A DNA stretch of 33,238 nt. It comes from Bacillota bacterium. GTDB taxonomy: Bacteria > Bacillota > Sulfobacillia > Sulfobacillales > Sulfobacillaceae. The position numbers were made by a program, and so were the translations under genes. The DNA is taken from contig JAKBWA010000008.1 of assembly GCA_021841025.1 (NCBI GenBank), forward strand, positions 1-33,238, read 5' to 3'. Of this stretch, positions 21,373-25,612 are shown one piece after another (the first letter of the stretch is position 1; each line of letters starts with the position of its first letter). The notes under the pieces are model-generated. The model ran no database searches, had not been told where the DNA came from, and was given only the letters and a program-made list of their open reading frames with translations.

Positions 21373-22227
21373 TTACAACGACTCCATGACCACGTTATCA
21401 ATCAGGCGGGCGCGCCCGAGACGTGCCGCCAACGCCAGAATGACCGGGGAGTCGGCTATGGTGTCCACGGAAGCCAAAGTGTCAGCATCGACTAATGACA
21501 CATACTCTGGCTCAATGCCATGTGCTTCTAAGATCTTGAATGCTTCAGCAATTAATGAGCCTGCATGTCTTTCTCCACGCTCAAACAGTTTTTTACCAGC
21601 TAACAATGCCTGATAAAGAAAAGCCGCTTGATCTTTTTCCTGGGCAGTCAGGTATTGGTTGCGTGACGACATGGCTAACCCTGAAGGTTCCCGCACGGTG
21701 GGCACTCCCACAATTTCCACGGGAAAGTTTAAATCCCGGGTAAGTTGTCTGATAATAGCTAATTGCTGTGCATCTTTTTTTCCGAAGAACGCAAAATGGG
21801 GTCGAATGATATTGAATAATTTCGCAACCACAGTAGCTACTCCGTCAAAATGCCCAGGACGTCCTAGCCCACACATCGTATTCGTCATGGAGGGCAGAGT
21901 GATCACAGTTCGACTGGGCCCGTTGGGATACATCTCCGCCACTGAAGGCGCAAATACACTTAGAGGACCGTATCGTTCCAATGAATGAAGATCTTTCTCC
22001 AAATCTCTGGGATAGTTTTTAAAATCTTCATGAGGACCGAATTGAAGCGGGTTAACAAATATACTCACAATCACCACGGCTGCCCGTTTTTTAGCTTCTT
22101 CTACCAACGCCAGATGACCTTGGTGCAAAGATCCCATCGTCGGAACCAGAGCGACCCTTTCATTTGCCTGCCGGTCCAAAAATGCCTTCATAGCCTCTAA
22201 TGATTCCAGACAAACAATACTGGACAA
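21373..22227 (-). CDS. panC: Pantothenate synthetase (pantoate-beta-alanine ligase)
   Basis: 284 residues from TTG 22227, with AAGGAG 10 nt upstream. It joins pantoate and beta-alanine using ATP, the last step of pantothenate synthesis. Seen: PTMGSLHQGHLALVEEAK (HIGH-like nucleotide-binding motif), VSIFVNPLQFGPHEDFKNYPRDLEKD, GHFDGVATVVAKLFNI, FFGKKDAQQLAIIRQL, and SSRNQYL (KMSKS-like). It follows the oxidoreductase gene by 28 nt and is probably cotranscribed. panB and panD are not in the window. Confidence 0.96.
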   Translation of the reverse strand: MSSIVCLESLEAMKAFLDRQANERVALVPTMGSLHQGHLALVEEAKKRAAVVIVSIFVNPLQFGPHEDFKNYPRDLEKDLHSLERYGPLSVFAPSVAEMYPNGPSRTVITLPSMTNTMCGLGRPGHFDGVATVVAKLFNIIRPHFAFFGKKDAQQLAIIRQLTRDLNFPVEIVGVPTVREPSGLAMSSRNQYLTAQEKDQAAFLYQALLAGKKLFERGERHAGSLIAEAFKILEAHGIEPEYVSLVDADTLASVDTIADSPVILALAARLGRARLIDNVVMESL

Positions 22228-22255: not shown

Positions 22256-22924
22256 TTAAGATTCAAATGACGCCTTTAACCGTCGTAGCAAGTGATCTTC
22301 ACTCAACGCCCCTTCAAAACTTTGTTTACGTCCGGTGTCCTGAATCGTCATGACTGTTTTAGGTACGACATAGACATCTTCCATTTCGGCCATTTCCGCA
22401 AACGCACTAGACTCAATCGACTCACCCCGAATTCTTGCCGGATTGGCCAATGCGATTTGGTGAACCAGGCGGACCGCCCGGGGACAATGGGGTCACGTCG
22501 GTGTCACGAACACCCGCAGCAACACATCATGTTCTAAATTGCGAATGTAATTAATGGTCTTTTCACTGAGCCGAGAGCGGCTAGTTGAAACATCCAAAAT
22601 ATCCTCGATGAGTACGGCAAATTCATATCCCGAAGGCATGCCCAAAATCCGGATTCCCGTATCGTCCTCATTTTTATCACGCAAGAGAAGCGTAGGCACA
22701 CGTTCCACACCATATAACGCAGCCAGAAGACGATTTTTATAAAAGTCATAGACTTCTAAGTGCAGCAAGTCCGGCATCAAACTCACCACCTCGTTCAAAA
22801 TGCCCTCAGTGTGGGTGCTCCAATCACGGCCCGGCTCAGAAAATAGCACCAGATGGACCGGAAACTTCAAGTCCCGGAACATCTCGGACAAGGTTTGACG
22901 GTCCCGCTCACCTAAGAATCCCAC
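22256..22924 (-). CDS. Glutaredoxin-like protein disulfide oxidoreductase with in-frame TGA (putative selenoprotein)
   Basis: 222 residues if TGA (22495-22493, codon 144) is read as selenocysteine. Start GTG 22924, 5 nt after GGGGGAG, gives MGFLGERDRQTLSEMF like archaeal/bacterial PDO proteins. The two thioredoxin folds align along their length with Pyrococcus-type PDO recalled from memory: VPTLLLR and GMPSGYEFAVLIEDILDVS in the N-half; RVFVTPT-[TGA]-PHCPRAVRLVHQIALAN and VVPKTVMTI in the C-half. The TGA stands precisely for the first cysteine of the catalytic CPHC (homologues: TPTCPYCP). No other stop or frame break occurs. The N-terminal CxxC seen in archaeal PDO is absent (LFSEPGRDW). PDOs form or shuffle disulfides in the cytoplasm. 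If selenium is not used, the gene is a nonsense pseudogene, or a truncated N-half is made. Upstream of panC in one transcript. Confidence 0.85.
22465..22495 (-). promoter_or_regulatory. Putative bacterial SECIS element following the TGA codon
   Basis: On the mRNA, UGA is followed after 11 nt by a 7-bp stem CCGGGCG/CGCCUGG (one GU pair) with a GUC loop that begins 18 nt after the UGA. Bacterial SECIS elements usually have the apical loop 16-37 nt from the UGA and a G among its first two bases; both hold. The GGUC run recalls the E. coli formate-dehydrogenase loop. The base after UGA is C, a weak termination context. Folding judged by eye. Confidence 0.6.
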
Positions 22925-23114
22925 AACTTCTCCCCCTTGCTCCAATTCGCCGCCCTACCTCTTGCTGTGCAAGTTTTTGATCTGGCCAATCTGGGCTAAG
23001 GCTGTTTGTGCTTACCGATTATCTATGATATTACACCTTAAATGTTCACGTCATAAAAACCATTTTATTTCCAAGATTTGTCCTATCCCTGCTCGATGGC
23101 GATCAGCTCTGTGT

Positions 23115-24731
23115 TCAATTTGCCGATTTTTCGCCAGACGCATCGGCAGAATGCGTTGGAGCCAGCTGGTCATCACTCGGCCATGTCAATCGCCGCCTTG
23201 TGGCCATGAATTCCTGACCCAAAGCATCCAGCCGCTCTTCAATCACCTTACGGTCGTCTTCCCAGAAGAAGATATCCAATAGTCTCTTCTCCAACGTACC
23301 ACGGCGTTCTAAGTGTCTCAAGATGACATCAAGTTCACCGACCACATGACGAAAGAGATCGATTTTCTCGTGCAGAAGATGCAAAATATTTTCTTCGATC
23401 GTATCCATAGTAAACAAGTTATAAATTTCTACAGGATGTTTCTGCCCCATGCGGTGAACCCGGCCGATACGCTGTTCAATACGCATTGGATTCCACGGTA
23501 AATCGAAATTAATCAATCGATGGCAAAATTGCAGATTTAATCCTTGCCCGCCAGCCTCAGTGGACACCAGCACACGATCCCCGTCTCGAAACCAAGCGAT
23601 AATCCGGTCACGTTCCGTCCGGCTTAAACCCCCATGAAACATTTCTGCCGAAATGTCTGCTTCCCGCAAGGCGTTAACAAGAGTTTTTTGTGTTTCGCGG
23701 TACTCGGTAAACACTAAAACATGACCGGATCCAGGCCGAATTAAGTCAATCAAATTCCGCATTTTGGATGTTTGAGGAATGGACCGGGCTAGGCTCAAAA
23801 GTTCTTCTTGAAGTGTCCCCAACCAATCGGAATGTTCTAAGGTGGGAATCAATGCTTGCGGAGAAGAACACAACTCGCGCTGAAGGGTGATCAGGGGAAG
23901 AATGGTTTGATTGCCCCGTAGCCGCTGGCGGTATTCATCTTTGAGAGCACGAGTCATGCCGTCATACAAACGGCGTTCTTGGGCACTTAGAACAATGGGC
24001 CATAGAGTGACTTCACGCGGCGGCAAGTCCAGTCCGACTTCTTGACGCCGGTTGCGGACCATCACTTTGGCCAGTAGTCTCTTCAGTGCCCGGGCATTTT
24101 TCGGTGTCCTTTTATCAAGAATAAACTGGCGATAAAAGCGCAAGTAACTGCCAAACAGACCGGGTTTTACCAGATTGACGAGCGTGTATAGCTCGTTCAG
24201 CTCATTCTCCATGGGCGTCGCAGTTAACAGCACCAAAAACCGCGATTTTAACCCTGCCACGAGACGGTAGTTTAACGTATCGGTATGTTTTAAATGATGG
24301 GCCTCATCAACAATAACCAAATCCCAATTCACGTATTGCAACTGTTGGTAAAGCGGGGATTTTTTAGCCTTGTCAATCGAAAAAACCCACAGCCACCCTT
24401 TGTCCCGAGCACTGTCGCAGGTACGCCATCCAAACTTGTTTCGCAATTCGTGAATCCATTGCGACACCAATCCCGCAGGAACTAATATCAGGACTTGATT
24501 CACCAGGCCCTTTGCTCTCAACTCCTGGGCAACGAGCCCGGCTTCAATAGTTTTTCCCAATCCCACTTCATCCGCAAGAATAGCACGGCCTTCCAAACGA
24601 TTGACGACGGTAAGAACGCTGTCAATTTGATAGCGGTGTAAGGTGAGCCCGTCCGCTAAATGCTGCTCAATCTTTGGCCAGCATTCAAGATGCGCAGTTA
24701 AATGGTCTAAAGACGGCTCTGCCTTACTCAT
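23115..24731 (-). CDS. SNF2-family DNA helicase/translocase linked to the NHEJ genes
   Basis: 538 residues from ATG 24731, whose ATGA overlaps the stop of the LigD polymerase gene. Helicase superfamily 2: motif I DEVGLGKTIEAG (about residues 54-65), Ia PAGLVSQW, motif II DEAHH (about 142-146), III LLTATPMENELNELYTL, then the C-lobe with VLVFTEYRETQKTL, VSTEAGGQGLNLQF and QRIGRVHRMGQ. It is short, without an N-terminal SWIM or other accessory domain. SNF2 enzymes push along duplex DNA and displace proteins. The coupling to Ku, ligase and polymerase suggests it clears ends or remodels protein-DNA during end joining; that is inference from context. Confidence 0.92.
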   Translation of the reverse strand: MSKAEPSLDHLTAHLECWPKIEQHLADGLTLHRYQIDSVLTVVNRLEGRAILADEVGLGKTIEAGLVAQELRAKGLVNQVLILVPAGLVSQWIHELRNKFGWRTCDSARDKGWLWVFSIDKAKKSPLYQQLQYVNWDLVIVDEAHHLKHTDTLNYRLVAGLKSRFLVLLTATPMENELNELYTLVNLVKPGLFGSYLRFYRQFILDKRTPKNARALKRLLAKVMVRNRRQEVGLDLPPREVTLWPIVLSAQERRLYDGMTRALKDEYRQRLRGNQTILPLITLQRELCSSPQALIPTLEHSDWLGTLQEELLSLARSIPQTSKMRNLIDLIRPGSGHVLVFTEYRETQKTLVNALREADISAEMFHGGLSRTERDRIIAWFRDGDRVLVSTEAGGQGLNLQFCHRLINFDLPWNPMRIEQRIGRVHRMGQKHPVEIYNLFTMDTIEENILHLLHEKIDLFRHVVGELDVILRHLERRGTLEKRLLDIFFWEDDRKVIEERLDALGQEFMATRRRLTWPSDDQLAPTHSADASGEKSAN

Positions 24732-25612
24732 AGTCCTCTTGGCCTCCATAATCTGAGCTTGTCTTCTGATATTCCGCGATCCCGCAAATGCTGGGTCAGA
24801 GAAACCCCTGGGCTTGACACTTGAAACAAGTCACCCTCCCGAGCAATCTTCTCGATGACCCGGTTCATTGTCCACCATCTGGGATCTCGCCCCATTTCAT
24901 TCACCCTGATCGGACAAGACACACAAGCCCCAGGAACGGCCCGAACGGAGTAAACTCCAGCCATCGTCCTTTGACCTGAGTTTTGCAAATAATCAATATA
25001 AACCCGTTTCCCTCTATGTTTTTTCAAACGTTGCAATGTCAGCAAATGAGGGTAAGTCTGCTGAGCGATTTGAGCGATAAGCTGACACGCAAGACTCACG
25101 TCGCGGCCAAGTTCAGGGTGGATTTTGATGTAAATGTGCAACCCCTGCCGCCCGGAAGTTTTTAACACAAAAGGAAGTTCGAGCAAATCAAGAAGCCTGA
25201 TCATAATGCCTGCGGCTTCAACGACTTGCTCCCAACTAACCTGATAAGGGTCCAAATCGAAAACAGCCCAGTCGTGATAATGGGGATCCCGGGCCAAAGC
25301 CAGGGGCACGTGCCATTCGATGACGCCTCTCGCGACCCACTGCAATAAATCTTCTGCGGAATGGACGTGTATAAGACCCTCTTCCTTCGAACCTTCCACT
25401 TTGGTGTGCTTTTGATAAAACATCGCTCCATTAAGACCATGAGGCCAACGTTTGACCGTCAACCAACGATTGCGGTAATGAGGCAAAAGAACAGAACTAA
25501 CCATGGCATAATAATCCATTAACTGCCTTTTGGTGATTCCCTGGTCAGGAAATAGAACCCGGTCGGGATGTGAAACCCGAAGTTTAGTCCTGCCATCGAC
25601 GAATTCGACCAT
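24728..25612 (-). CDS. ligD-pol: NHEJ DNA polymerase (LigD polymerase/primase domain, stand-alone)
   Basis: 294 residues. An archaeo-eukaryotic-primase-type polymerase that fills or extends broken ends. Seen: SHPDRVLFPDQGITKRQLMDYY, FYQKHT, the catalytic metal-binding WAVFDLDP (Asp109, Asp111), KTSGRQGLHIYIKI, and YIDYLQN. In many bacteria this domain is fused with a ligase in LigD; here it is separate. Its start lies 29 nt inside the ligase gene, its stop overlaps the SNF2 start by 4 nt. No nuclease (PE) domain is encoded nearby. Confidence 0.93.
   Translation of the reverse strand: MVEFVDGRTKLRVSHPDRVLFPDQGITKRQLMDYYAMVSSVLLPHYRNRWLTVKRWPHGLNGAMFYQKHTKVEGSKEEGLIHVHSAEDLLQWVARGVIEWHVPLALARDPHYHDWAVFDLDPYQVSWEQVVEAAGIMIRLLDLLELPFVLKTSGRQGLHIYIKIHPELGRDVSLACQLIAQIAQQTYPHLLTLQRLKKHRGKRVYIDYLQNSGQRTMAGVYSVRAVPGACVSCPIRVNEMGRDPRWWTMNRVIEKIAREGDLFQVSSPGVSLTQHLRDRGISEDKLRLWRPRGL

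Follow-up and report, generated by a model that had tools for sequence, protein, structure and literature searches.

We find that a reverse-strand gene in a 33,238-nucleotide stretch of DNA from a Sulfobacillaceae bacterium (hereafter the window, meaning the whole stretch analyzed) very probably encodes a selenoprotein: a protein disulfide oxidoreductase (PDO) with two thioredoxin folds, in which an in-frame TGA supplies the selenocysteine (Sec) of a C-terminal Sec-Pro-His-Cys site. Sec insertion at this codon is what we infer from features that were computed, namely the reading frame, the protein family, the predicted fold, the conservation of the TGA, a constrained hairpin and the Sec genes. 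A preliminary description of this DNA had proposed selenocysteine at this codon, and the proposal is now well supported by the conserved TGA, the alternation of TGA and TGC among orthologues, the constrained SECIS hairpin, and Sec machinery both in this genome and in related ones.

The gene, its frame and its protein family

Translation of the gene yields 222 codons and a final stop, and the single internal stop is the TGA within VFVTPT*PHCPRAV (Table 1). As the preliminary description held, this one TGA stands at the first Cys position of a CPHC motif (U-P-H-C), and frame and length continue past it with no other lesion. When the TGA is taken as a residue, the NCBIfam model TIGR02187 (protein disulfide oxidoreductase, PDO_seleno_TRX) matches the whole length (residues 6-217) at 195.1 bits (curated NCBI cut-off, 185 bits), and Pfam Thioredoxin_3 matches the C-terminal half. 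The earlier assignment to the PDOs is confirmed by this match and by the AlphaFold model (pLDDT 91), for which the closest solved fold is the Pyrococcus furiosus PDO (1a8l, TM 0.91); compared with 1a8l, the model predicts two tandem thioredoxin folds. Sequence matches to solved PDOs include those of P. furiosus (E ~1e-36) and P. horikoshii (E ~2e-33). The protein departs from the canonical two-site pattern of PDOs, having the C-terminal U/CPHC only: an N-terminal CxxC was found in no orthologue in the alignment (which included the further same-genus genome described below), and Cys147 is the only Cys of the protein.

Table 1. Positions of the PDO gene and associated features in the window
Feature	Position	Strand	Remarks
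Sec-containing PDO gene, 222 residues	22256..22924	(-)	GTG start 22924, TAA stop 22256-22258
In-frame TGA interpreted as selenocysteine (residue 144), first position of C-terminal active site UPHC	22493..22495	(-)	
TGT, resolving Cys, residue 147 of the UxxC motif	22484..22486	(-)	Invariant in orthologue alignment
Bacterial SECIS hairpin CCGGGCG-GUC-CGCCUGG	22465..22481	(-)	Loop 22472-22474
Probable ribosome-binding site CAAGGGGGAG, 5' of GTG start	22930..22939	(-)	Suggested by reading the sequence
panC, pantoate-beta-alanine ligase, directly downstream of PDO gene	21373..22227	(-)	Neighborhood conserved in relatives

Termination is a general competitor of Sec insertion at UGA, and on that ground the codon might serve chiefly to stop translation; the main product would then be a 143-residue N-terminal protein, and the product of selenium-dependent read-through would be minor or regulatory. 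We consider this very improbable: the shorter product would hold neither Cys nor Sec, and the only active site sits in the C-terminal half, which is conserved.

Elsewhere in the window (23115-25612, minus strand), the gene for an SNF2-type helicase adjoins one that encodes a LigD primase-polymerase domain on its own; together they may form a DNA end-joining cluster.

Conservation of the TGA among orthologues

Scanning one genome per species yielded eight relatives (all Sulfobacillus or Bacillota bins, 57-90% identity). The active-site codon is TGA in seven of them, including Sulfobacillus thermotolerans Kr1, and TGC in the eighth (L004). A further same-genus genome (L135) has TGA at the same codon, so that the recurrence of the TGA lies far beyond chance. 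With the window included, 9 of the 10 distinct Sulfobacillus-clade orthologues carry TGA and the remaining one TGC (L134 is a repeat of the L004 sequence); this is the outcome of the homologue alignment that the preliminary description had suggested. Most of these orthologues come from draft metagenome bins, while the S. thermotolerans Kr1 genome, with TGA, is complete. Downstream of the TGA, dN/dS is 0.07 for one and 0.14 for the other of the two nearest relatives, and it is saturated for most others; purifying selection thus acts on this part of the gene.

These results bear on the idea that a nonsense mutation or sequencing error produced the TGA, leaving a pseudogene or a miscalled Cys codon. 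Such an origin would be in keeping with the draft state of the genome (118 contigs) and with the single base that separates TGA from TGC and from TGT. Nevertheless, the same TGA recurs across several species whose genomes were assembled separately (one of these genomes is complete), the gene has no other lesion and is under strong selection after the stop, and the hairpin described below is constrained, which together leave this explanation a negligible probability.

A constrained SECIS hairpin downstream of the TGA

The hairpin with a GUC loop that had been described 18 nt past the UGA is present, with a 7 bp stem and a folding energy of -10.5 kcal/mol. It also passes the SECIS check proposed at that time, falling within every limit of the published bSECIS model, which specifies a loop of 3-9 nt with a G in the first two loop positions, a distance of 16-37 nt from the UGA, a stem of 4-16 bp and an energy of at most -7.5 kcal/mol (PMC13188914). 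Applied elsewhere in the gene, to codon positions 60 nt or more away, the same hairpin test gave none as low as -10.5 kcal/mol. Among the nine TGA orthologues, 27 alignment columns are invariantly Arg, Leu or Ser, and just three of the 27 use a single codon throughout; these are exactly the three stem codons, which a random pick of 3 from 27 columns would hit with a chance of 1 in 2,925.

Across the family (66 rows, a few of them duplicates), the full SECIS test is passed by 36 of 43 TGA genes versus 2 of 23 Cys genes, both of the latter being the L004 sequence, and at ~6% of the remaining positions in these genes. In two paralogues from the window's genome, the stem is kept with swapped base pairs (U-A replacing C-G or G-C). 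A column-shuffle control of the pairing was exceeded only mildly (0.807 observed; shuffled mean 0.754, maximum 0.789) as most of the stems hardly differ from one another, and the synonymous constraint and the contrast between TGA and Cys genes are stronger evidence for the hairpin than this control. We propose that the hairpin, lying just 3' of the UGA, would be recognized by SelB carrying Sec-tRNA-Sec, whereupon the ribosome would put in Sec at the UGA with no termination.

The TGC orthologue (L004 6001-6651) still keeps a SECIS-like hairpin, and the combination likely reflects a recent Sec-to-Cys change. We rejected the notion that this TGC is still read as Sec, which nothing beyond the hairpin supports, a recent Sec-to-Cys change being simpler.

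Selenocysteine genes in the genome and its relatives

The preliminary description had called for a search for Sec genes, and this search succeeded in part: the draft assembly holds a complete selA, a Sec-type selD that itself carries a Sec codon (motif SGUGCK) and the first 16 nt of a tRNA-Sec, while selB was not found in it. The tRNA-Sec fragment ends contig C22, whose terminal GGGAGTAGTTGGGGGC exactly matches the opening 16 bases of a relative's tRNA-Sec (L041), so the gene appears to be cut by the contig end. A complete tRNA-Sec was not found in the assembly, and a search for the 3' part returned nothing, which fits a gene cut in this way. The tRNA-Sec search of the genome also gave nine below-cut-off matches, and those inspected are ordinary tRNAs (Ser, Leu, Arg and Tyr among them). 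An Rfam search of the window itself returned tRNA-Pro only.

Seven of the eight relatives have selB. In one of them (G002) and in S. thermotolerans, it belongs to a single conserved block with secD, secF and sugar-nucleotide genes, these neighbors being named from a reading of their translations. The window's assembly matches the G002 stretch over its first kilobase only, on contig C107, which ends 1.5 kb past that kilobase, in addition to some short matches in tRNA genes and elsewhere. No secD above the cut-off was found in the assembly. To our knowledge, secD is nearly universal in bacteria; because it too is absent, an assembly gap is the simplest reading, and selB probably falls in it. Separately, the two relatives' genomes G006 and G008 (of L006 and L008) have selA, selB and a Sec-type selD with no tRNA-Sec at the Rfam cut-off, reflecting either an assembly gap or a divergent tRNA-Sec.

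It could also be argued that a suppressor tRNA or a changed code places Cys or some other amino acid at the UGA, since S. thermotolerans and the L004 genome have an odd tRNA-Cys, long in its variable arm, whose score exceeds the tRNA-Sec cut-off. The GCA anticodon of this tRNA does not read UGA, however, whereas a true tRNA-Sec (UCA anticodon) is present in four relatives and starts at the contig end in the window's genome. Furthermore, TGA terminates 9 of the 29 other genes predicted in the window, where the run-ons span 1 to 54 codons; UGA thus functions as a stop there. The SECIS-like hairpin, for its part, is for the most part confined to TGA genes. We therefore judge this alternative highly unlikely. 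More generally, pseudogenization, error and a changed code are all unlikely because the TGA is conserved, the sequence 3' of it is under purifying selection and UGA is a normal stop in the window; selenocysteine remains the preferred reading.

The long-arm tRNA-Cys(GCA) genes of the Sulfobacillus clade (L049 1497-1587, minus strand; L050 1497-1587, minus strand; L045 685-781, plus strand) score near or above the Rfam tRNA-Sec cut-off, and are unusual among bacterial tRNA-Cys.

Paralogues and the wider family

The window's genome holds three more TGA-containing PDO paralogues (L138, C67:3556-4173; L139, C110:49788-50387; L140, C48:49811-50140). Each has one TGA at the same active-site position, and two of the three are very divergent. 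None of the four Sec PDO paralogues has the N-terminal CxxC, whereas it is retained in most relatives from other families. Many TIGR02187 members within the phylum and class carry one TGA; in every such member whose sequence was read, it occupies the first position of the C-terminal motif. On the family tree, the bootstrap of which is not fully settled, parsimony counts 11 changes between Sec and Cys, of which at least four are forced by well-supported branches.

Relation to known systems and proposed function

The preliminary description had supposed that a Sec-containing PDO might be undescribed, which does not hold. A selenoprotein family named 'Homolog of AhpF, amino-terminal domain' was listed in 2006 from Carboxydothermus and Symbiobacterium (PMC1794560), a selenoprotein list of 2026 gives the family under TIGR02187 with UxxC (PMC13188914), and the NCBI model itself bears the name PDO_seleno_TRX. 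The listed proteins (Grx-like domain protein; Carboxydothermus hydrogenoformans ABB15282.1 and Symbiobacterium thermophilum) share with ours the NCBIfam model, the UxxC motif and a SECIS just 3' of the UGA; the Sulfobacillus protein differs in lacking the N-terminal CxxC and in having four Sec paralogues in its genome. The Sec-containing PDO is thus an already known selenoprotein family, to which the Sulfobacillus gene adds a member and no new kind of system. Sulfobacillus is not named as a host of this family in the papers found, and our literature search found no described PDO selenoprotein in Sulfobacillus; a Sec-containing formate dehydrogenase (PMC4378227) and a Sec-containing PrxU (PMC7409299) are known there.

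Archaeal PDOs (P. furiosus 1a8l and the Sulfolobus solfataricus PDO) have the same architecture of two thioredoxin folds (34% identity, TM 0.91), and their C-terminal CPYC aligns with the Sulfobacillus UPHC. They use Cys, with a CxxC in each domain (PMC7465337), whereas the Sulfobacillus protein has one site, with Sec. The N-terminal domain of AhpF has the same fold (TM 0.72-0.84), but the Sulfobacillus protein stands alone without the flavin reductase part, and it reaches 68 bits with the AhpF model, for which the cut-off is 503. In the S. solfataricus PDO, thiol transfer relies mainly on the C-terminal site, isomerase activity needs both sites, and electrons pass from thioredoxin reductase to peroxiredoxins (PMC7465337). 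Because the C-terminal (Sec) site alone is present here, the protein is best read as a disulfide reductase and not an isomerase. Its N-terminal domain would keep the fold without the CxxC, leaving Sec144 and Cys147 as the single redox center, and its likely role would be that of a cytoplasmic disulfide reductase passing electrons from a thioredoxin-reductase-like flavoprotein to peroxiredoxins or other oxidized proteins.

Our findings correct how a conserved Sulfobacillus gene is annotated, which standard reading would truncate at the UGA. They also provide well-supported Sec/Cys pairs, complete with SECIS elements, for a selenoprotein family on which documentation is sparse. The remaining interest is modest and lies in the expansion to four Sec paralogues in an aerobic acidophile, a testable feature, together with the loss of the N-terminal CxxC. 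We tentatively raise the possibility, on which we would not yet rely, that in Sulfobacillus and its relatives the PDOs diversified into single-site selenoenzymes that may serve as specialized disulfide reductases in an aerobic, metal-rich and acidic habitat, which would constitute an undescribed lineage-specific expansion.
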